This document shows positions 12,935 to 37,154 of a DNA stretch of 64,000 bases, piece by piece. Within the stretch, counting starts at the first letter, position 1. Each line of letters opens with the position of its first letter. The translations under genes were made by a program, and so were the position numbers. Under the pieces are notes generated by a model. That model was not told the origin of the DNA, searched no databases, and saw only the letters and a list, made by a program, of their open reading frames with translations. This DNA comes from Lacticigenium naphthae DSM 19658. GTDB taxonomy: Bacteria > Bacillota > Bacilli > Lactobacillales > Carnobacteriaceae_A. The stretch is from assembly GCF_000425865.1 (NCBI RefSeq), contig NZ_AUEG01000001.1:372001-436000 (forward strand). The letters are read 5' to 3'.

Positions 12935-13936
12935 ATGATTTGTCCAAACTGCGCTATTTCTGGTCAACGACTGATTTTTTCGCTTCCTGATTCTGTTCTG
13001 AATATTTTTAGAGAAGGAAATACTTCTTTAATGAATCACTATAAAATATTAGACGCTAGTGTGGAAACAAATGAAGTAGGAGGGAAAGAACTTGTTGATT
13101 TCCTTGAAGCAATGAATCTCGAAGAAAACGTATCTTTTCAAATCAACAATGAAAGCTGGAAACCGATACATAAATTTTCAGATTATGTAAACGCAAACTG
13201 GGTAGATGACTTAATAAAAAATCGTCAAGTAAACATGCATTTCCAACCAATCATAACTAAAGACGGTAATATTTATGGTTACGAAATGCTTGCTCGTTTT
13301 TTTAATGGAGAAGGTAAAACACTTTATCCTAACATTGTCTTTCCAGCAGCTAAATTGCGCGGGCGAACTTTTGCTCTTGATCGTGTGTGTCGCATCGAAG
13401 CAGTTAAAAAAGTTAAACATTTAGTTCATGAAGAGAAAGTGTTTATAAATTTTCTTCCCACTGCGATTTATTCACCCGAATATTGTTTAAGAACTACGAC
13501 GCTTGTTGCTAATCAATTAGGAATAGACAGTCAACGGTTTGTTTTTGAGGTCGTTGAAACTGAAAAAATAGAAGATGTGGATCATCTAAAGAGTATTCTT
13601 CTCTATTATAAGCAAAATGGTTTCTCTTTTGCTCTCGATGATGTGGGGAGTGGATACAATACACTCGATTTATTAGCTGATTTAGAGCCTCCCTATATGA
13701 AACTCGACATGACTTACGTTCAAGGTGTTACTAACGATAAAGAAAAACAAGCTGTAGCCCTATCATTCTTGAAAAAAGCAAAGGAGCTAGGCTCTCTCAC
13801 TCTTGCAGAAGGGATTGAAACTCCGGAAGACTTTTTATGGTTTAAGGATACAGGCTATGATTTATTCCAAGGATATTATTTTGGTAAACCAGCACCCTTC
13901 CCATTAAATCAGACAACAGTAAACATACCGAAATAG
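12935..13936 (+). CDS. EAL-domain c-di-GMP phosphodiesterase with N-terminal CxxC segment
   Basis: The C-terminal two thirds (about residues 90-325) is an EAL domain with a largely complete active site: YGYEMLARF, FINFLPTAIY, FEVVETE, FALDDVGSGYNTL, MKLDMTYV, LAEGIETPEDF and QGYYFGKPAP. It is therefore probably an active phosphodiesterase that degrades c-di-GMP to pGpG. The first 85 residues form a separate domain beginning MICPNC, whose CxxC could bind metal or sense redox state. No membrane helix is present. An AAAGGAG site precedes the ATG. The gene is monocistronic, with its own terminator, and lies between the other c-di-GMP genes. Confidence 0.9.
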   Translation: MICPNCAISGQRLIFSLPDSVLNIFREGNTSLMNHYKILDASVETNEVGGKELVDFLEAMNLEENVSFQINNESWKPIHKFSDYVNANWVDDLIKNRQVNMHFQPIITKDGNIYGYEMLARFFNGEGKTLYPNIVFPAAKLRGRTFALDRVCRIEAVKKVKHLVHEEKVFINFLPTAIYSPEYCLRTTTLVANQLGIDSQRFVFEVVETEKIEDVDHLKSILLYYKQNGFSFALDDVGSGYNTLDLLADLEPPYMKLDMTYVQGVTNDKEKQAVALSFLKKAKELGSLTLAEGIETPEDFLWFKDTGYDLFQGYYFGKPAPFPLNQTTVNIPK

Positions 13937-13940
13937 TTTT

Positions 13941-13979
13941 AAAAAGCTCATCACAAACCATGCTGTGAATGAGCTTTTT
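13941..13979. terminator. Terminator between the EAL gene and the acetyltransferase gene
   Basis: A stem of AAAAAGCTCAT plus CACA pairs with TGTG, one bulged A, and ATGAGCTTTTT. The A-run and T-run allow it to act in both directions between convergent genes. Confidence 0.85.
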
Positions 13980-14008
13980 ACTTATCCTTAAATCAACTAT
14001 TAGGGAGT

Positions 14009-14569
14009 TTATGCTTCAATTGTTTTTAAGACTCGAGCAGGATTACCCCCAACTACAGAATTTTGGGGAACATCTTTGACAACAACAGCTCCGGAGGCAA
14101 TAACAGCGTTGTCCCCTATCGTGATCCCTGGATTAATAACTGCATTCCCACCTATCCAAACATTATCCCCAAAACGAACGGGCTTGCCATATTCTCTTCC
14201 AGAATTTCTTACAGTTGGATCTAAAGGATGAGTAGCAGTATAAATAGCTACATTTGGGCCCAACATGCAGTTATCTCCAAATCTCACTTCACAAACATCT
14301 AAAATAACTAAATTATAATTTGAGTAAAAATTCTCTCCAATATGAATGTTGTAACCATAATCAAATCGAATGGTTGGCTCCATGTAAAAAGTTTCTCCTG
14401 TGGATCCTAACATTTCTTTTAAAAGTGCTTGTCTCTTGTCTTTTTCCGACTCGTTAGAATCATTGAACTGTTTCACTTTCTCTCGCACCCTATTCCTTTC
14501 AGTACTTAATATCAAGTTTGAAGGATCATACATTTCTCCGGCTAACATCATTTCTTTTTCGGTTGGCAT
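14009..14569 (-). CDS. Maltose O-acetyltransferase-like hexapeptide acetyltransferase
   Basis: This cytoplasmic enzyme transfers acetyl from acetyl-CoA to sugar hydroxyls. An N-terminal Mac domain (about residues 4-58, starting TEKEMMLAGEMYDP) is followed by left-handed beta-helix hexapeptide repeats (about 75-182). The catalytic histidine lies in TATHPLD. The CoA-binding turn includes WIGGNAVINPGITIGDNAVI. Its length of 186 residues is typical for Maa/LacA. The gene is divergent from a cation transporter gene with inverted repeats between them. The natural sugar acceptor is unknown, and these enzymes are often detoxifying. Confidence 0.92.
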   Translation of the reverse strand: MPTEKEMMLAGEMYDPSNLILSTERNRVREKVKQFNDSNESEKDKRQALLKEMLGSTGETFYMEPTIRFDYGYNIHIGENFYSNYNLVILDVCEVRFGDNCMLGPNVAIYTATHPLDPTVRNSGREYGKPVRFGDNVWIGGNAVINPGITIGDNAVIASGAVVVKDVPQNSVVGGNPARVLKTIEA

Positions 14570-14632
14570 ATTTTTAGCTCCTTATTATCTATTTTAACAA
14601 GCTTCTCTGTAATCATACTTTAATCTCCTTTT

Positions 14633-14688
14633 TTACTCAAATACACTTAAAAATATATTTGAGTAATTTTATTCTCATTTCTAATGAG
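14633..14688. promoter_or_regulatory. Two inverted repeats in the divergent Maa/CDF intergenic region
   Basis: TTACTCAAATA (14633-14643) pairs with TATTTGAGTAA (14656-14666), a perfect 11-bp repeat. CTCATT and AATGAG form a second, smaller one at 14674-14688, directly before a TATACT box that probably belongs to the cation transporter promoter. These are candidate operators; no regulator gene is adjacent. Confidence 0.45.
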
Positions 14689-14729
14689 TTATACTATAGT
14701 TACCGTTGTGTCTAAGAAGGAGCATTTTT

Positions 14730-15899
14730 ATGTTTGATCAATTAATTGACTTTTATCTGCAACACGCAAAACCAACTAAGCATACACAAAGAAATCAATT
14801 AGGGATTTTTTCTGGAATAATAGGCTTATTCTCGAACCTAACCTTATTTTTGATAAAATTTTATGCAGGATTCGTTTCAGGAAGTGTTTCCATTATTACT
14901 GATTCAGTAAATAATCTTGCTGATAGTGGTTCATCTCTGCTTACTCTTATAGGATTTTCGGTTGCAGGAAAACCTCCCGACAAGAAACACCCTTATGGTC
15001 ATGAGCGCTTTGAATATATTATTGGATTATTCATTTCATTTATCATATTATTCGTGGGGATCGAATTTCTGACCACATCTTTCAAAAAAATTCTTTCTCC
15101 TAGTCCTTTAAGTCCTTCTTTTTTTATAATTGTTTTACTAATTCTCTCTATTTTTATTAAATGGACCCAAGGAAGATTATATGGCCATGTAGCAAAGCGA
15201 ACTCACTCACAGACCATTCAGGCTGCTAGTCAAGATAGCCTGAATGATGTACTGATCACGTTCACCGTTCTCCTTTCTTTTAGTGTAGAGTGGTTATTTG
15301 GGTGGCAAATAGATGGATATGTAGGTTTTATAATCGCTCTTTACATCCTCTATTCAGGGATAGTATTAATCAAAGAGTCCATTGATGACTTATTAGGTAC
15401 TGCACCTCATCCAGAAGAAATCAATAATCTGATCCATATTTTGGATCAATATGAATCGATTGTCGGCTACCATGATTTATTGATCCACTACTATGGACCA
15501 AACAAACGATTTGCTACTGTTCATATCGAAATTGATGATAGTTGGAACTTAGTAAAAGCACATGAAATAATCGATTCTATTGAAAAAATTACAAAAGAAG
15601 AATTAAGCATCAATCTCGTTTGTCATATTGACCCTATAGCTATCCGAAGTAAGGAACAAACCGATATTTATCGTCAAATCAAAAAGATCCTCCATTCTTA
15701 TTCTCTTTCCTTTTCTTTTCATGATTTTCGTGTAGAAGAACATGCTGGAGAATCACTCATTCGTTTTGATGCGGTTGTTCCAGACAATCTGGAAATGTCC
15801 GACGACGATCTCTACGATGCAATCGTCGCAGATATACATCTGAAAGTCGGATTTTATTCTGTTGAAATCGATTTTGATCATTTGTACTTTTTGAAATAA
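14730..15899 (+). CDS. Cation diffusion facilitator family transporter
   Basis: This is a proton-coupled divalent cation exporter of the CDF family. The start is the ATG at 14730, seven bases after AGAAGGAG; a longer frame from 14706 runs through this site. Helices 1-6 occupy about residues 25-215 and a long cytoplasmic domain follows to 389. The transport-site motifs are DSVNNLADSGSS in helix 2 and SQDSLNDVL in helix 5. HPYGHERFEYI between helices 2 and 3 is the family signature. The tail is longer than the usual 80-residue cytoplasmic domain and probably contains two ferredoxin-like units. Zinc or manganese is likely, but the metal cannot be assigned. The photolyase gene follows after 22 nt. 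Confidence 0.92.
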   Translation: MFDQLIDFYLQHAKPTKHTQRNQLGIFSGIIGLFSNLTLFLIKFYAGFVSGSVSIITDSVNNLADSGSSLLTLIGFSVAGKPPDKKHPYGHERFEYIIGLFISFIILFVGIEFLTTSFKKILSPSPLSPSFFIIVLLILSIFIKWTQGRLYGHVAKRTHSQTIQAASQDSLNDVLITFTVLLSFSVEWLFGWQIDGYVGFIIALYILYSGIVLIKESIDDLLGTAPHPEEINNLIHILDQYESIVGYHDLLIHYYGPNKRFATVHIEIDDSWNLVKAHEIIDSIEKITKEELSINLVCHIDPIAIRSKEQTDIYRQIKKILHSYSLSFSFHDFRVEEHAGESLIRFDAVVPDNLEMSDDDLYDAIVADIHLKVGFYSVEIDFDHLYFLK

Positions 15900-15921
15900 T
15901 GGTGAATGGGAGGATAAAATT

Positions 15922-17274
15922 ATGGATGCTCGAATTCAAGTCTTGAACGAAAATGAATTACAGGACAACCGTTACGTTGTTTATTGGATGCAAAGTTCAC
16001 AACGAACCGAATATAATCATGCTCTAGAATACGCAATAGTTGAAGCAAACAAGCTTTCAAAGCCTTTGCTCGTTTGTTTTGGATTGACGGCTGAATTTCC
16101 TGAAGCAAACACAAGACATTACACATTTATGCTTGAGGGACTCAAAGAAGTACAAGCGAATTTAGTAGAAAGAGAAATTCAGTTTGTTCTGCGAGCCATT
16201 TCCCCAGAGAAAGCAGCAATAGAAATAGCTCAACTGGCTGCGGTAATGATTGTAGACCGCGGATATTTGCGAATTGAAAGAGATTGGCGGAAAGAAGTTG
16301 CTAACAGTATCGAGTGTCCGCTGATCCAAGTTGAAACAAATGTGATCGTCCCTGTCGAATCGGCATCACCCAAGGAAGAATATGCTGCTCGAACGATCCG
16401 CAAGAAAATTCAAGTTCAACTGGATACTTTCACTTCATCTCTAGAGGAAAACAAAATCCAGCACTTTTCTTTAAATGAAGATTTACCCTTTTCTACCCTG
16501 GTCCCTATTGACATCCCGATACTATTAGACCATCTGCAGGTGGATGGTACGGTTCCAGCTGTGGATGGCTTCAAGGGTGGTACTGGTGAAGCAAAAAAAC
16601 GATTGGCAGATTTTATTGAGCGGAAACTTCCTTTTTTTAATGATGATAGAAACAAACCTGGCTATGATGTTGTTTCTGATATGAGTCCCTATTTGCACTT
16701 TGGTCAAATTTCTCCACTCTATATTTTTCACCAGTTGCAGGCTGCTTCCCCTTCCGAAAATAAGGAATCTTATATTGAAGAGTTGGTTATCCGAAGAGAA
16801 TTGAGCATGAATTTTGTTTTTTATAATGAAAAATACGATCAATATGTTGGCCTTCCTGATTGGGCAAAAGAGACGTTGGCGGATCATGAAAGTGATGAAC
16901 GTAAATTTCTTTACACCCTTAAAGAACTTGAAAAAGCTGGTACTCATGATCCATACTGGAATGCTGCCCAGAATGAAATGGTTTTGACAGGAAAAATGCA
17001 TGGATATATGCGCATGTATTGGGGGAAAAAGATCATTGAATGGAGTCAAAACTCAAAAGAAGCATTTGCTCGGTCTCTCTACTTAAATAATAAATATAAT
17101 TTAGATGGAAGAGATCCCAATAGTTTCACAGGGATTGCCTGGTGTTTTGGAAAACATGATCACGGATGGAAAGAACGAGAGATTTTCGGAAAAGTTCGCT
17201 ACATGAATGCAAAAGGTCTGGAAAGAAAATTTGACATGCAAAAATATGTAGATAAAATAAACGGGCTCCTATAA
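15922..17274 (+). CDS. phrB: Class II CPD photolyase
   Basis: This enzyme repairs UV-induced cyclobutane pyrimidine dimers using FADH- and light. Class II assignment rests on the N-terminal YVVYWMQSSQRTEYNHALEYA, the central HYTFMLEGLKEVQ, PYLHFGQISPLYI, and the C-terminal SFTGIAWCFGKHDHGW then IFGKVRYMNAKGLERKFD; these differ from class I enzymes. Length is 450 residues, as expected. A GGGAGGA site precedes the ATG. The gene is 22 nt after the cation transporter and is probably co-transcribed with it. A heliorhodopsin is encoded 18 kb away in the same window. Confidence 0.94.
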   Translation: MDARIQVLNENELQDNRYVVYWMQSSQRTEYNHALEYAIVEANKLSKPLLVCFGLTAEFPEANTRHYTFMLEGLKEVQANLVEREIQFVLRAISPEKAAIEIAQLAAVMIVDRGYLRIERDWRKEVANSIECPLIQVETNVIVPVESASPKEEYAARTIRKKIQVQLDTFTSSLEENKIQHFSLNEDLPFSTLVPIDIPILLDHLQVDGTVPAVDGFKGGTGEAKKRLADFIERKLPFFNDDRNKPGYDVVSDMSPYLHFGQISPLYIFHQLQAASPSENKESYIEELVIRRELSMNFVFYNEKYDQYVGLPDWAKETLADHESDERKFLYTLKELEKAGTHDPYWNAAQNEMVLTGKMHGYMRMYWGKKIIEWSQNSKEAFARSLYLNNKYNLDGRDPNSFTGIAWCFGKHDHGWKEREIFGKVRYMNAKGLERKFDMQKYVDKINGLL

Positions 17275-17322
17275 AAAAGCTACAGAAGTTAGGATGATCA
17301 CACTCTTATTTCTGTAACTTTT
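17275..17322. terminator. Imperfect bidirectional terminator after the photolyase
   Basis: AAAAG plus TACAGAA pairs with TTCTGTA plus CTTTT around one C-A mismatch, with flanking A and T tracts. It lies between convergent genes and can serve both. Confidence 0.55.
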
Positions 17323-17326
17323 GAGT

Positions 17327-18532
17327 TTAAAAATTTCTAACAGTTTGATCTGCCCACCAAATAGATTCTAAATAGCTAGTAGCCATATAATTAGTGAGCA
17401 TATTTAATTCACGAGACAATTTATCAACCTGAGGCCAATCTGCTTTTTCGTAAGCTTGAATCATTTTAATAAACGAAGCTAAATTGCCTTTCTTACCGAT
17501 CAGCGCGTCCTTGATATCATCGCTAATTGACACATTCTCTAATGCTGTTTCCATGTCCGTATCCAATAGCGCATCAAGAATACTGAATAAACACATTAAG
17601 GATATTTCATGTTGTCTATCGATAAAAGAGCTGTTTTTAGCTAACAATTCACCAAACTTTGAACGAATCAAGGAAAGTCTGAGCAGTTCTAGCGGTTTAT
17701 TGCTCGAAAAGTCCTGAATCATCAGCAAATAGACCCAGTGCTCCAATTCGTTTAATCCCATTCTGACTATTGCCGTACGAACTGTTTTTAACCGTTCTTT
17801 TTTTGATGTAATGTGGTCGATTCTCATGATTCGGTATGCAATATTGATGTCGTTTGAAATGATTTCAGCCAACTTTGTAAAAGAAGCTTCATCTTTCTTC
17901 ATTTCAACAAGGAGCATTTGATAGATAATTTTGGGTGTCTTTTTTATGGCCATTCCAGCTATCATCTGTGGTTTTTGAAAAAAATAGCCTTGGAATAAAT
18001 GAAAACCCAATTTTTTGGCTAGCAAAAACTCTTTTTCGGTTTCAACCTTTTCTGCCAATAATATTTTGTGTTGTTTTAGGTGTGCCTTGACTTGGCTTTC
18101 AATTTCATTTAGGGGAGTTGCCAGTATATCATACTTTATGATGTCCACATCTTTCTCCACTTTTGCTGAATGATTCATTATTTGATAGTCGTCTAAAGCT
18201 ATTTTATATCCCTTTTCTTTCAATTCTATTACGCGCGCAGAAACAGCTTCATCAATTTTAACGGTTTCAAGTATTTCAACAACTAAACGTTCTGGTCGGA
18301 TAAGTTCTAATGAGGAAGATTTGAGCATTTCTGAATCAAAATTCACAAAAGCTTTCGAATCGCCTGCAATATTATCCATTCCCCACTCAAACAATCCACT
18401 CAACACACTAGCAGTAGAAGCTTTTGAAGAAGTCCCGTCATACCCTTTTGATTGCTTCGTTGAACGAAACAGTAATTCATACCCATAAATATTTCGTTGT
18501 TTATTAAATATCGGTTGTCTTGCTATATACAT
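17327..18532 (-). CDS. EAL-HDOD signalling protein (YuxH-like), paralogue 2
   Basis: This is the second EAL-HDOD protein of the window. The start is the ATG at 18532 with AAAGAGG upstream, which gives MYIARQPIFN and 401 residues, exactly the length of the paralogue at 3937-5142. The EAL-like half contains YGYELLFRS, VVEILE, ALDDYQ and IKYDI; the catalytic GTGYSSL loop is missing, so catalysis is doubtful. The HDOD half has KLAEIISNDINIAYRIMRI and TAIVRMGLNELEHW. Both proteins end in an almost identical WADQTVRNF tail. The gene lies 43 nt after the membrane GGDEF gene on the same strand, so the two may be co-transcribed. Confidence 0.9.
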   Translation of the reverse strand: MYIARQPIFNKQRNIYGYELLFRSTKQSKGYDGTSSKASTASVLSGLFEWGMDNIAGDSKAFVNFDSEMLKSSSLELIRPERLVVEILETVKIDEAVSARVIELKEKGYKIALDDYQIMNHSAKVEKDVDIIKYDILATPLNEIESQVKAHLKQHKILLAEKVETEKEFLLAKKLGFHLFQGYFFQKPQMIAGMAIKKTPKIIYQMLLVEMKKDEASFTKLAEIISNDINIAYRIMRIDHITSKKERLKTVRTAIVRMGLNELEHWVYLLMIQDFSSNKPLELLRLSLIRSKFGELLAKNSSFIDRQHEISLMCLFSILDALLDTDMETALENVSISDDIKDALIGKKGNLASFIKMIQAYEKADWPQVDKLSRELNMLTNYMATSYLESIWWADQTVRNF

Positions 18533-18575
18533 ATTCTGCCTCTTTTCAAGCTTGGTTTCCCACAAATTATTTTAG

Positions 18576-20807
18576 CTATTTATTCTGTTTACTCCTGTTT
18601 TTTTCCTTATACATCCGTTGATCAGCAATATTCATTAACTGACTCAACGTTTTTCCATCTTCTGGAAAGAGAGCCATTCCAATACTCGCTTTTGTTATAG
18701 CAGAGTATTTTGAATTTAAACGATAAGCTTCATGATCAATAGATTGCAATCTTATTTTAATCTCTTCAGCTTCTTGAAAGGATTTAATTTTAGGAATAAG
18801 TACTAAGAACTCATCTCCTCCATATCTTGAAACCCAATCTTCTTCACGAATCATTTTACGTAAACGTTGTGCATAGAGTCTTAACAGTCTATCTCCCATT
18901 TGATGCCCATGCTGATCATTTATTTCTTTGAAGTTATTTAAATCGATCACAAATAGGCCGGATTTTCTACTAACATCTTTCTTATTTTGAACATGGTCGA
19001 GAAAAACTTCTTCGAACTTCACTCGGTTGGGCAAACCAGTCAGCTGATCGTAAAATGCCAATTGATGTAATTTTTTTTCCAGTCCTAATTTTTGACTTGC
19101 TTCTTCCAAATGGTAGGAAAGGACATCACTTAAAACAACTTGGAATGCTCCGTATTCACTCTTTTCCTGTTCGTGGAAAGAAAGGAGAAACCCCTTCACT
19201 TCCATCTCATATTTAAGCGGCAAATATTCTATTCTTTCAATTGAATATTTGCCAGTGGGGTCCCCTTTTACTTTCTTATAATACGGTTTATTCACTTTGA
19301 AATTGGATTTGTTTCTTATGCTTTCCCATTGACTTGTAACATATTTTTCCATTTGATTTTCTTTCAATCTCTCCTCTTGAGAGTAAAAATAATCTTGCGG
19401 TTCTCCTTCTTCTATTTCTACGTGCAAATAAACGAACGATGCCCCAGAGAACTTTGTCCATTTTGAGAGCAATTCCATTGTGAGCGATTCTGTTTCGCTT
19501 ATCTGCTTATTCAGAATTACATGTGCTAAGTCGCTGTTCAATTGCAATATATTTACGTTATGGTTATAGTCGATTCCTCTTTTTTTTAATATATATTGGA
19601 TATAGACTGCCAAGCTCGAAAAAATCATCAATAACAAGATCCGACTTATGTGATCAACTGATTGAATTGTATACTGCATTTCTGGGTATTTCATCCCAAA
19701 ATAAATAAATATTCCAAGCGACGTAAATGCAATGAATAATAAACGATTTAAGTTGCTAAATAGAATTGTGAACAATATCATGATGAGGGGGATCCCCATA
19801 CCTGCTACTTGTGCGAAGGACATTTGAAAATACAACAAAATAAATACTATGGTGCATGCCATAAGTATGGTTATTATCCACTCTTTTACTGGTATAGAAA
19901 AATGAGAAATACTCATAAAATACAAAAGATGTCCAACGATGAACAGGGTCGCTCCTGGGCGTATTGCTATATAAAATGAATGTCCCGTAACAAAGTATTC
20001 GATTGCATACACTAAATAAGCCATATAAATTAATCCTAGGCTCAAATACAAATAGCCCCTATCTTTCGCCTCCTCATTCATTAAACCAAAAGAAGTAGAA
20101 AGAATGGACTTCATTTTGCTTCTTTTTTCGTATTTAAATAATATATAGGCTGTTAAAACAAAAGGAATACCTAATAAGATGGGCGCTACAGTAGCATAAA
20201 ACACAAAGTATACTTCACCCAATAGAATCCTTGAAAGTAAAAAGAAAGTATTGGCTATAAAAAACCAGCCGACGTTTCGCTGTATGAGTCTCCTAACTTG
20301 AGATCCGTCTTTTACAATTACTTTTTTTGCTAGCATTGAATAAATGAATAAGCTATAAATAATAGAATATAGACCCAATATACTTTGATTTTCAAAAGTT
20401 GAAAATTGAGATAATAACCCAAATTGGTCAATCGGCATATTCACACTTGAGTTATTTAAGAAGATGACCCCATAAAATATCAACAGCAGAACCATCGGAA
20501 AATAGTTCATGAACAGCCACATTTTATTTTTGTTTTGCATTAGTTGCAATATAAAATGAGTAGTAAGCGGATAAACCACTATTTCAGAAATTTCCGTCAT
20601 GAAACAACTTATTGGGAGTAAATCTAGTGATTCTGCACTAAAAAATAGAGATAAATTAAACATCCATAGACTAAAAATCAAAGAAATCAGCAAAAATAAT
20701 TGCAACAAATGAGATTTTCGATTCAAATGATATAAAATGATTCCTGTAAAATAGAAAAAGATCAATAAAAAAAATAGAAGAAGCGATAAAGTTAGTGGAC
20801 GTTCCAT
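18576..20807 (-). CDS. Multi-helix membrane diguanylate cyclase
   Basis: I chose the ATG at 20807, which follows GGGAGGG by five bases, giving 743 residues. About eleven to twelve hydrophobic helices fill residues 5-410. A linker of about 150 residues that may be GAF-like follows, then a GGDEF domain (about 575-738). The active site SRYGGDEFLVLIP is intact, and REED sits exactly five residues before GGDEF, so the product-inhibition site RxxD is present. This is the only cyclase here with both sites. The N-terminal membrane region is not one of the common MASE types that I can recognise. An EAL-HDOD gene follows on the same strand, and a Crp-like regulator gene is divergent. Confidence 0.9.
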   Translation of the reverse strand: MERPLTLSLLLFFLLIFFYFTGIILYHLNRKSHLLQLFLLISLIFSLWMFNLSLFFSAESLDLLPISCFMTEISEIVVYPLTTHFILQLMQNKNKMWLFMNYFPMVLLLIFYGVIFLNNSSVNMPIDQFGLLSQFSTFENQSILGLYSIIYSLFIYSMLAKKVIVKDGSQVRRLIQRNVGWFFIANTFFLLSRILLGEVYFVFYATVAPILLGIPFVLTAYILFKYEKRSKMKSILSTSFGLMNEEAKDRGYLYLSLGLIYMAYLVYAIEYFVTGHSFYIAIRPGATLFIVGHLLYFMSISHFSIPVKEWIITILMACTIVFILLYFQMSFAQVAGMGIPLIMILFTILFSNLNRLLFIAFTSLGIFIYFGMKYPEMQYTIQSVDHISRILLLMIFSSLAVYIQYILKKRGIDYNHNVNILQLNSDLAHVILNKQISETESLTMELLSKWTKFSGASFVYLHVEIEEGEPQDYFYSQEERLKENQMEKYVTSQWESIRNKSNFKVNKPYYKKVKGDPTGKYSIERIEYLPLKYEMEVKGFLLSFHEQEKSEYGAFQVVLSDVLSYHLEEASQKLGLEKKLHQLAFYDQLTGLPNRVKFEEVFLDHVQNKKDVSRKSGLFVIDLNNFKEINDQHGHQMGDRLLRLYAQRLRKMIREEDWVSRYGGDEFLVLIPKIKSFQEAEEIKIRLQSIDHEAYRLNSKYSAITKASIGMALFPEDGKTLSQLMNIADQRMYKEKNRSKQNK

Positions 20808-20954
20808 TACACCCTCCCTTTCGTGAATCAAATGAATAAATTAACTAAAGTATACCTTAAACTAGTTCAAAATTTCTGTTACATATGAAACACTTCTTAA
20901 TATTTTTTTATAGTTGTCGATAGTATAAATATACCCTTGCGAGGAGACGATCAA

Positions 20955-33483: not shown

Positions 33484-34890
33484 ATGTCTGCAAACATACT
33501 CGGCTTCGGTTTTTTAATGATTGGTTTATTTTTAATTGTAGGGAAACTTATACGTTTTCATACTGGTTGGATGCGCAATTTATTTTTACCCAGTTCAATT
33601 ATTGCTGGATTTTTAGCCTTGATTTTAGGGCCAGATGTATTAGGTAAATTTACTGCGACACTATTTGATCCTTCCTCAATACTATACAATGGACTGGTTC
33701 CAGATGCCATTTTAGATGTTTGGCGCCCTCTTCCAGGATTGTTTATTAATATTGTTTTTGCTACTTTATTCTTAGGAAAAACTGTTCCTAGCGTAAAAAA
33801 AATATGGAGTACTGCTGGGCCGCAAATCATTATGGGACAAGTTGTCTCTTGGGGACAATATGTCATTGGATTGACACTCACGATTTTTGTGCTCACACCC
33901 TTTTTCGGTATGAATCCATTAGCAGGCGGGTTGATTGAAATTGCATTTGTAGGTGGCCATGGCACAGCTGCTGGACTCACTGACACATTTCAAGATTTAG
34001 GGTTCCCCGAAGGGCTAGATTTAGCGTTAGGTTTAGCAACCGTTGGGATACTAGTTGGTGTCATTGTGGGTATTATATTAATTAATATCGGTTTCAAAAA
34101 AGGATTTGCCAAGCACGTTGGCGGACGCTCCTATTTCTCAGATGAGGAACGCGAACAAATCGGAGACACTTATGGTTATGATATAGATAGTAAACTGAAA
34201 GAAGCTGAAGCGATTGAACCATTAGCCTTCCATTTTTCGTTAATTGCAATAGCTATTGTTCTAGGTTACGTACTACAACAAGGTCTGATTGCCCTAGAGG
34301 CAAACACTTGGGGTCCGAGCACTGGCGTATACTTACTGACCTATGTTCCTCTATTTCCTTTAGCAATGATAGGGGGAATGCTTATTCAATTAATTTTCAG
34401 TAAATTGGACCTAGAAGATTATATCAATCCAAATCTTATTAATCTGATTGCTGGATTTGCTTTAGATATTCTCTTATTCTCTGCTTTGGCCACTATTTCT
34501 TTAGATGTAATCAGCGATAATTTCATTCCTTTCTTACTATTAGCTATTGTTGGTACAATTTGGAATGTATTAGCCTTCTTATATTTGGGTCCACGAATGA
34601 TTCCTGATCACTGGTTTGAAAGAGGCTTAGGGGATTTCGGTCAAGCGACTGGTATGGCGGCCACAGGTATTCTTTTAATGAAAATCGCTGATCCGAAACA
34701 ACAAACACCTGCTCTCGAAAGCTTTGGTTACAAACAAATTCTATTTGAACCTTTCGTAGGTGGTGGACTAGTAACAGCAGCCGCTCTTCCTTTTATTTTC
34801 CAATTTGGTCCTCTTGCTTTCTTGATACTATCTGTTATTGTTACACTTTCCTTTACAGTATTTGGTTTGATTTATTTTGGTCGAAAATAG
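33484..34890 (+). CDS. gltS: Sodium/glutamate symporter, GltS family
   Basis: This membrane protein of about eleven helices belongs to the GltS family of Na+-coupled glutamate carriers. The two inverted halves carry matching pore motifs: AFVGGHGTAAGLTDTFQDLG in the first and GLGDFGQATGMAATGILL in the second. It is longer (468 residues) than E. coli GltS, as is common in Firmicutes. A GGAGGA site precedes the ATG by seven bases, and a consensus promoter lies upstream. It is monocistronic with a strong terminator. Other acidic substrates cannot be excluded. Confidence 0.9.
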   Translation: MSANILGFGFLMIGLFLIVGKLIRFHTGWMRNLFLPSSIIAGFLALILGPDVLGKFTATLFDPSSILYNGLVPDAILDVWRPLPGLFINIVFATLFLGKTVPSVKKIWSTAGPQIIMGQVVSWGQYVIGLTLTIFVLTPFFGMNPLAGGLIEIAFVGGHGTAAGLTDTFQDLGFPEGLDLALGLATVGILVGVIVGIILINIGFKKGFAKHVGGRSYFSDEEREQIGDTYGYDIDSKLKEAEAIEPLAFHFSLIAIAIVLGYVLQQGLIALEANTWGPSTGVYLLTYVPLFPLAMIGGMLIQLIFSKLDLEDYINPNLINLIAGFALDILLFSALATISLDVISDNFIPFLLLAIVGTIWNVLAFLYLGPRMIPDHWFERGLGDFGQATGMAATGILLMKIADPKQQTPALESFGYKQILFEPFVGGGLVTAAALPFIFQFGPLAFLILSVIVTLSFTVFGLIYFGRK

Positions 34891-34968: not shown

Positions 34969-35545
34969 TTTTTATTACGAGAATCAATTTCTCCTATTGT
35001 TTTTAAAATAGAATGCATAAATAGAAATGAAAGCTCTCGAAAGAAAATAGTTACTGCTCATAAGGACAGGAAAGAAAATAGTATTGTCGTCATAAGATTA
35101 TAGTGTTGTGTATTGCTTGCGTCAAACTGAACAATGAATCCAATAGTTTAAAGAATGGCTGCGAAATATTGAAACCCTCTATTGCTTTGCTGGTTTTTCA
35201 CTTGACCACTGTTCTTATCCGTATCTTGCATTTAAGGATACTAAGTATATGCGTTAGAGGATGAGTAAAGTGAAGCCGCTCAAAAACAATACTTTGTCAA
35301 AGGATTCAAAAAATGAAATCCAGCATTATCCTATTCAAAGAGAATTGTTGCCTAGATACTAGAGACTGTGAAATAACGCAAGTTATGCTAAAATGAATAT
35401 ATACATACTATTACGCTAACTATTATAAAATAATCTATTTATTTTATAATAAATAGAATCGTAAGGGGGGGATAATTTTTCGTATGTATGAACATTTAGT
35501 TAGTGTTCTATAGTATTTCATTTATATGATTAAGGGGTGAACAGC
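34969..35545. other. Gene-free stretch before the heliorhodopsin gene
   Basis: No supported gene lies here. An AT-rich inverted segment (TATTTATTTTATAATAAATA region near 35440) and a TATAGT box near 35507 are the only features. A clear -35 box for the heliorhodopsin promoter was not found. Confidence 0.4.
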
Positions 35546-36328
35546 ATGTCAAAAGAAATTACGTTCCATTCATTAAAGAAATTTAATACCATTATGGGTT
35601 TTTTACATCTTATTCAAGGACTCTTAATGCTCGGTTTTGCACTTTTTATTGAACGAATTGCAGATTTCAGGATACCCATTATGTCCTATTTCCTTACTTT
35701 CGACCAAACACAAATGCGCTTAGTTACTGAGCCAAACCAATTAGGTGAAGTACCTTTTGGAATAGCAGTCTCTCTCTTCCTATTTATATCTGCTTTAGCT
35801 CATTTTATTATTGTCAGCCCTTGGGGAAACAAAATATATAACCGTGATTTGAGTAATGGAATGAATCGATTCCGCTGGTATGAATATGCCCTCAGTTCCT
35901 CTTTAATGATCCTATTGGTTGCTCTATTATTTGGTGTTTATGATATTGGTGCCCTCATACTCATTGTCGTAGTGAATGCTTCTATGAATTTATTTGGATT
36001 AGATATGGAAGAAATCAATCAGTATACTAAAAGGACAAATTGGAAGCCGTTCATATTTGGATCCATTGCAGGTTTAGCTCCTTGGATAGTCATCTTGCTT
36101 TATGCCTTCGGTAATTCAAATCCGGCAGAAGTTCCTTGGTTTGTTTACGCAATTGTAGGCAGTTACTTTGTGTTTTTCAACCTTTTCCCGATCAATATGA
36201 TTTTACAATATAAAAAAGTTGGGAAATGGGAAAACTATCTTTATGGTGAGAGAGGATACATTATATTAAGTCTGTTTGCAAAGTCAATTCTCGCATGGCT
36301 AGCATTTGCTGGAGTAATGCAGCCCTAA
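35546..36328 (+). CDS. Heliorhodopsin
   Basis: This 260-residue, seven-helix protein matches the heliorhodopsin family, which is distinct from type 1 rhodopsins and sits in the membrane with the N-terminus inside. The retinal Schiff-base lysine is K246 in SLFAKSILAWLAFAGV, and the helix-3 counterion glutamate is E113 in RFRWYEYALSSSLM. GERGYIILSL before the lysine is also family-typical. The ATG at 35546 follows AAGGGG; a GTG three codons upstream lies inside that site. Heliorhodopsins do not pump ions strongly and are thought to be light sensors or enzyme regulators. No carotene cleavage gene is visible in the window. The gene appears monocistronic. Confidence 0.93.
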   Translation: MSKEITFHSLKKFNTIMGFLHLIQGLLMLGFALFIERIADFRIPIMSYFLTFDQTQMRLVTEPNQLGEVPFGIAVSLFLFISALAHFIIVSPWGNKIYNRDLSNGMNRFRWYEYALSSSLMILLVALLFGVYDIGALILIVVVNASMNLFGLDMEEINQYTKRTNWKPFIFGSIAGLAPWIVILLYAFGNSNPAEVPWFVYAIVGSYFVFFNLFPINMILQYKKVGKWENYLYGERGYIILSLFAKSILAWLAFAGVMQP

Positions 36329-36344
36329 TGTCAATTAGTTATGA

Positions 36345-36575
36345 GAAAGTGGGACAAAAAACGTTCAGATCCGAATAGAGCTCCGCATACTCTATCCGTA
36401 AGCCACTAAAGTGTCAACGGATACAGCAACTGGAGCGGATACTCGAAAGATAGTCGTAGACTATCGAAGAGTCTTCGTGAAGTGGATGTCGGATCTGTTT
36501 TTTGGAGCACGTTTTAGAAAGTAACCTTTGGAAAATGATTAGAGTCTGGGACTTTTGTCCCAGACTCTTTTTTTT
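36345..36575. repeat. Structured intergenic element ending in a terminator
   Basis: A 230-nt element begins near GTGGGACAAAAAAC and ends in GAGTCTGGGAC-TTTT-GTCCCAGACTC plus eight T residues. Inside, CAGATCCGA (36366-36374) pairs with TCGGATCTG (36489-36497). Nested stems include GATAGTC/GACTATC (36449-36465), CGAAGA/TCTTCG (36465-36477) and TATCCG/CGGATA. Similar GGGACTTTTGTCCC-type elements recur between genes in Lactobacillales, so this may be a repeat family copy. It also terminates the heliorhodopsin transcript. It could alternatively encode a structured RNA. Confidence 0.6.
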
Positions 36576-36611
36576 ACATCTTATTTTGCTATCGCTATTA
36601 TGGATCTTCAT

Positions 36612-37154
36612 TTAGAATGATTTGATGTAAATAAGTCTATATACTAATTCATTATCTAGTCGTACACTTTCCATCAATGAAATGCTATTAACCACTATTT
36701 CAGCATCAGGAACTTTTATTTTGTCAATGAGGCTCTCAACCGGAATGTTTAAGACCGCCTGACGAACCATGGTAATATGCGGTATATATTCTAGTCCTTC
36801 CTTATCGAACCCAACTTTATCTAGTTTATCTTCTATACTTATCTTAAGGTCCTTTAAACAATCTAACTGACCCTTTACTCCTACCCAAATAATTTCTTTC
36901 TTTTTTCTGGGAAAATGTCCTACAGTATCAAGAGAAATCGTAAAAGACGTTCCATTTGAAGCTGTTCGATCAATTACCTGTTTGAGTCGGCTTATTTCTT
37001 CCTTATCTACCTCTCCTATAAAACGCAAGGTTACATGGAAATTATCTCTAGAAGTATAGTTTCCTTTTTCTACATATTTTTTTATGTTATTTTGTATGCC
37101 TTTAAGCTGTTTTTTCGTTCGTTCCTCTATCTCTACCGCAATAAAAACTCTCAT
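36612..37154 (-). CDS. thpR: RNA 2',3'-cyclic phosphodiesterase (2H family)
   Basis: This enzyme of the LigT/ThpR family opens 2',3'-cyclic phosphates on RNA ends. The two HxT motifs are HVTLRFIG near residue 42 and HITMVRQ near 126, placed symmetrically as required. The length of 180 residues is typical. GGAGGTGG lies just before the ATG. It is a single gene on the minus strand, convergent with the heliorhodopsin gene across the structured element. The physiological substrate of bacterial ThpR is not certain. Confidence 0.92.
   Translation of the reverse strand: MRVFIAVEIEERTKKQLKGIQNNIKKYVEKGNYTSRDNFHVTLRFIGEVDKEEISRLKQVIDRTASNGTSFTISLDTVGHFPRKKKEIIWVGVKGQLDCLKDLKISIEDKLDKVGFDKEGLEYIPHITMVRQAVLNIPVESLIDKIKVPDAEIVVNSISLMESVRLDNELVYRLIYIKSF

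Follow-up and report, generated by a model that had tools for sequence, protein, structure and literature searches.

The heliorhodopsin (HeR) gene lies at positions 35546–36328 (+ strand, stop codon included) of the window, the 64,000-nucleotide stretch of Lacticigenium naphthae DSM 19658 DNA that was analysed. It encodes a protein of 260 amino acids from an ATG start codon, and AAGGGGTG (35532–35539, + strand), which reads as a Shine–Dalgarno sequence, ends 6 nt ahead of it. The product matches the Pfam profile PF18761 (Heliorhodopsin) over its full length with 343 bits (E = 7.8e-103, cut-off 26.7) and the NCBIfam HeR equivalog NF038020 with 318 bits (cut-off 100). A sequence search of the PDB returned heliorhodopsins only (E = 6e-58 to 5e-55 for 6is6 and 48C12). 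An AlphaFold model built from 26 relatives (pLDDT 89.5) has the seven-helix fold and the long, strand-forming A–B loop, with two long strands at residues 42–70. In Foldseek comparisons the model reached TM-scores of 0.82–0.89 against TaHeR and 48C12 (0.89 for TaHeR) and 0.50–0.60 against the type-1 rhodopsins listed. Glu113 stands within RWYEYALSS, aligns with TaHeR E108 and is the helix-3 glutamate counterion, while Lys246, within SLFAKSILAW, takes the Schiff-base lysine position of helix 7. The open reading frame is thus a genuine heliorhodopsin and not a chance match, as the preliminary description had held on the strength of these two residues, both of which are exactly where it placed them. 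By homology, the protein would have the inverted topology, with a cytoplasmic N-terminus. It shares about 44% identity, the retinal lysine, the helix-3 glutamate and the fold with TaHeR (6is6, 7clj, 7u55) and 48C12 (6su3), which are archaeal and actinobacterial, respectively, whereas the window HeR comes from Lactobacillales. The genome, of 2.13 Mb, has no second copy of the gene.

The low-GC Gram-positive host was also correctly recognised, but its presentation as news was overstated. HeR is known from Trichococcus, Alkalibacterium and Enterococcus, and TfHeR of Trichococcus flocculiformis is a characterised protein (PMC9769723). The window HeR adds one member to an already known family.

The HeR gene is flanked upstream by a + strand gene for a polytopic membrane protein (33484–34890) that looks symporter-like by eye and has no Pfam or NCBIfam match. 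This gene is not kept beside HeR in relatives and was rejected as a partner. Downstream, a gene for a ThpR/LigT-like RNA 2',3'-cyclic phosphodiesterase (36612–37154, − strand) runs convergently with HeR, and no signalling gene adjoins HeR at this locus. A palindrome, ATAAC-N4-GTTAT, over an extended −10 element (TATGCTAAAAT, 35373–35394, + strand) stands 150–173 bp upstream of HeR. The full block, ATAAC-N4-GTTAT-G-N-TAWWAT, is found upstream of HeR in the window and at four Alkalibacterium loci (L032, L033, L034 and L036), at −173 from the start codon in the window and at −113 to −134 in the relatives. Two further loci (L037 and L041) retain the extended −10 alone, without the palindrome. The conserved block is taken as a candidate for a regulated, stand-alone HeR promoter. 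The palindrome occurs once in the window, against 0.17 copies expected; an operator common to HeR and the photolyase gene phr2 was ruled out, since this single copy leaves none at phr2.

The preliminary description gave the gene its own transcript, ending in a structured element. The first part is plausible, given the flanking gene layout, in which the + strand gene ends 655 bp upstream and the gene downstream is convergent, together with the conserved extended −10 and palindrome. As for the second, the element is real but not specific to HeR. The segment at 36344–36575 (+ strand; ends GTGGGACAAAA and TTTTGTCCCA) folds strongly (z = −5.3), and its 3' end forms an intrinsic terminator (36541–36576, + strand) composed of a hairpin at 36541–36568 and a T tract. 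The same segment is a copy of a dispersed repeat with 57 matching stretches in the genome, of which 8, the window copy counted, are near-full and 89–100% identical; a shorter form lacks 80 bp. Members of this family (L140–L149) are about 230 bp long, have short inverted repeats at their ends and contain a terminator hairpin. A known RNA was ruled out, as Rfam yielded no family at the gathering threshold and only noise below it. A HeR-specific element was likewise rejected because the repeat is genome-wide and is missing 3' of the Alkalibacterium HeR genes, where other short hairpins stand in its place. The repeat supplies the end of the HeR transcript by happenstance of position.

The window HeR is 84–88% identical to the Alkalibacterium heliorhodopsins, for which no published study was found in the literature, and adjoins them in the tree. 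The phosphodiesterase gene lies beside or near HeR in most Alkalibacterium, which points to an inherited locus, and vertical descent is the best explanation of tree and synteny. K246 is kept in all 102 relatives with a residue at that site and E113 in all 103 sequences that cover its site in the HeR alignment. Loss of the lysine in related strains, which the preliminary description had named as evidence against its reading, was looked for and not seen. Against the Alkalibacterium genes, synonymous sites are saturated, pN is about 0.09 and pN/pS is about 0.1; the window HeR is under strong purifying selection.

Loss of HeR does happen among relatives. A nonsense codon replaces a tryptophan codon in A. 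thalassium (L036; TAG, near the C-terminus) and in A. putridalgicola (L038; TGA), two relatives' genomes searched (G002 and G023) have no HeR, and a third (G016) holds only a short broken fragment. The two interrupted genes are otherwise intact, and the nonsense codon is the only amino-acid difference between the A. thalassium and A. pelagium proteins. These losses would fit a decaying gene, a remnant no longer needed and retained through recent descent. In the window, however, the frame, the promoter block and the Shine–Dalgarno sequence are intact, and a pN/pS this low at saturated synonymous divergence speaks against decay, so that such a remnant is very improbable. One Alkalibacterium HeR (L018, genome G022, genus g3) belongs to another clade than those of its congeners, near the proteins of G147 and G229, and is a probable replacement through horizontal transfer.

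The preliminary description saw no carotene cleavage gene nearby, left retinal supply as an open question and called for a genome search. That search was run, and it extends the observation to the entire genome (2.13 Mb, 99.96% complete, 32 contigs), in which no match was found to squalene/phytoene/dehydrosqualene synthase (SQS_PSY), Blh (BCD) or carotenoid oxygenase (RPE65). The question is partly answered by these results, and the cell appears unable to make retinal. None of 148 relatives has a Blh or carotenoid oxygenase above the cut-off. Blh candidates of 20 bits in six Alkalibacterium genomes were set aside after two loci had been read, one of which (L028, beside rnpA) encodes a YidC-like protein and the other (L030) a ZIP-like membrane protein.

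Retinal-making genes might be present but missed, through an assembly gap or an unrecognised cleavage enzyme. The assembly is in 32 contigs, and it contains an orphan CrtN-like desaturase gene (G000:C6:23747-25222, 343 bits) followed directly by an aldehyde dehydrogenase gene, in a genome without crtM. This is possibly a remnant or a repurposed pair. The near-complete assembly with its phytoene/dehydrosqualene synthase wholly missing argues against such an oversight, as does the nature of the weak Alkalibacterium BCD matches. Furthermore, the CrtN type of the relatives, as in the crtM–crtN-type operon of Alkalibacterium genome G020, is of the acyclic C30 kind, a pathway that, as established, gives no beta-ring and hence cannot lead to retinal. 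Missed genes are accordingly given very little weight.

The missing pathway and the 0/148 count among relatives would also suit a HeR that works wholly or partly without retinal, as an apo-opsin or with another bound chromophore or lipid, and many HeR relatives come from sediment or anaerobe genomes. This is improbable, as the invariant K246 is hard to account for without a Schiff base. In addition, HeR is described as reconstituting quickly with external retinal, a point that PMC9296517 takes from Shihoya 2019. Both for SacR and for microbes with HeR, published work describes retinal uptake in the absence of blh (PMC9296517). The Saccharibacteria rhodopsins of that study are likewise kept in genomes without retinal synthesis and receive their chromophore from outside, although they are type-1 proton pumps and not heliorhodopsins. 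Retinal is therefore most likely scavenged from outside, the supply best supported by the absence of synthesis genes from the genome together with this published uptake.

The most telling functional clue in the window was overlooked in the preliminary description. A class II CPD photolyase gene (15922–17274, + strand, 450 amino acids) lies 18.3 kb upstream of HeR, with many genes between, so the two do not form one operon. Its product scores 543 bits against TIGR00591 and the Trichococcus enzyme 524 bits, both below the NCBIfam cut-off of 550. The two photolyases are 58% identical, and the window enzyme is the orthologue of the one that TfHeR binds. TfHeR interacts with the class II CPD photolyase of its own operon (KD about 22 uM), stimulates it and extends repair to green light, and TfHeR R162 and K227 are essential for the binding (PMC9769723). 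In Trichococcus the operon order is phr2–DUF2238–HeR. All three genes are present in the window's genome, where they are dispersed and HeR has its own candidate promoter; the DUF2238 proteins of the two are 72% identical. The window HeR and TfHeR come from the same family and order and share about 60% identity and the same invariant pocket. K227 corresponds to the conserved K224, whereas R162 aligns with Thr161, with a Lys/Arg pair two residues on, in a gapped and ambiguous loop alignment.

Photolyase and HeR are strongly associated in Lactobacillales. Photolyase was found in 32 of 33 HeR-positive and 71 of 363 HeR-negative genomes (396 in all; Fisher p = 8e-20, OR 132). By genus, the counts among the listed genomes are 9/10 and 21/70 (p = 4.5e-4), genus labels being a crude control for descent among genomes that are not independent, and stratification within genera g3, g5 and g30 gave an exact p of 0.0028. 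Since HeR falls into about six separate lineages of the order in the tree, the pairing recurs, and since 71 HeR-negative genomes have photolyase, the link runs one way. HeR in Lactobacillales is almost confined to species with photolyase, a pattern that is new here. Of the 148 relatives, five have class II photolyase and three have DUF2238 above the cut-off, and all of these are HeR-positive. Carotenoid synthase also tracks HeR (OR 4.5, p = 0.004), far more weakly; Crt genes were rejected as HeR partners, with a correlation that is weak overall and nil within the Alkalibacterium genus g3.

Taken together, the reading that we favour, tentatively and with somewhat less than even confidence, is that the window HeR is a photosensor rather than a pump that works on exogenous retinal and is read out by a light or UV-damage response, likely as a photolyase helper. 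Because the cell cannot make retinal, all-trans retinal would be taken from outside, from algae, plant matter or neighbours, and would enter the K246 pocket. The photocycle of the protein would then be read out by the light or UV-damage response, and the enzyme most likely helped, presumably by physical contact, would be the class II photolyase at 15922–17274, as published for Trichococcus. Several observations stand against a helper role. There is no HeR–phr2 operon, the palindrome is missing at phr2, and R162 aligns with Thr161; moreover, in most HeR-positive Alkalibacterium the only photolyase is of class I, and G147 alone among the 33 HeR-positive genomes has no photolyase.

The same co-occurrence could arise from shared light exposure. 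HeR may be a general photosensor with another direct partner, such as a two-component system, a metabolic enzyme, a transporter or a DUF protein, with photolyase co-kept by species living in light. This is a serious possibility, only slightly less probable than the helper reading. Partners published for heliorhodopsins include glutamine synthetase, ABC transporters and histidine kinases (PMC9529153, PMC11109279, PMC8612252). The association with carotenoid synthase is what shared exposure predicts, the HeR gene of G147 stands beside a DUF2177-like gene, and TfHeR R162 appears not to be conserved. Against it stand the odds ratio for photolyase, far above that for carotenoid synthase, the recurrence of the link within three genera, and the restriction of class II photolyase and DUF2238 to HeR-positive genomes among the 148 relatives; furthermore, the window HeR has no signalling gene beside it.

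A further form of the photolyase reading, which is rather unlikely, makes the Lactobacillales HeR a dedicated accessory of photolyase repair, whatever the operon or photolyase class, on scavenged retinal. If true, the dispersed helR–phr2–DUF2238 set would be a functional module kept by selection instead of linkage, in which DNA repair is adjusted by retinal from the environment.

What heliorhodopsins do continues to be debated, and this locus adds a case in which the pigment is one the cell cannot make and cultured relatives are many. HeR itself is an ordinary family member; what merits following up is its pattern of co-occurrence with photolyase. With the contrast between 32/33 and 71/363, a single reported pairing, that of TfHeR with its class II photolyase, becomes a general hypothesis open to testing. 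Natural contrasts are provided by the species in which HeR is accompanied by class I photolyase alone and by the one species that has HeR and no photolyase. Most Alkalibacterium belong to the former, and their heliorhodopsins (e.g., that of A. olivapovliticus, L033) share with the window the syntenic place by the phosphodiesterase gene and, at four loci, the palindrome and extended −10. They differ in having, in most cases, class I photolyase together with a C30 carotenoid synthase, in the interrupted HeR of two species, and in the 3' end that lacks the dispersed repeat. In G147 (L173), the DUF2177-like gene, recognised by eye, lies directly 3' of HeR.

The photolyase gene of the window is surrounded by a cluster of c-di-GMP genes (12935–20831). 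The cluster includes an EAL protein at 12935–13936, an EAL-like protein at 17327–18565 (− strand) and a GGDEF-like membrane protein at 18576–20831 (− strand), of which the latter two were identified by eye. Some Alkalibacterium loci also encode a similar EAL protein near HeR.
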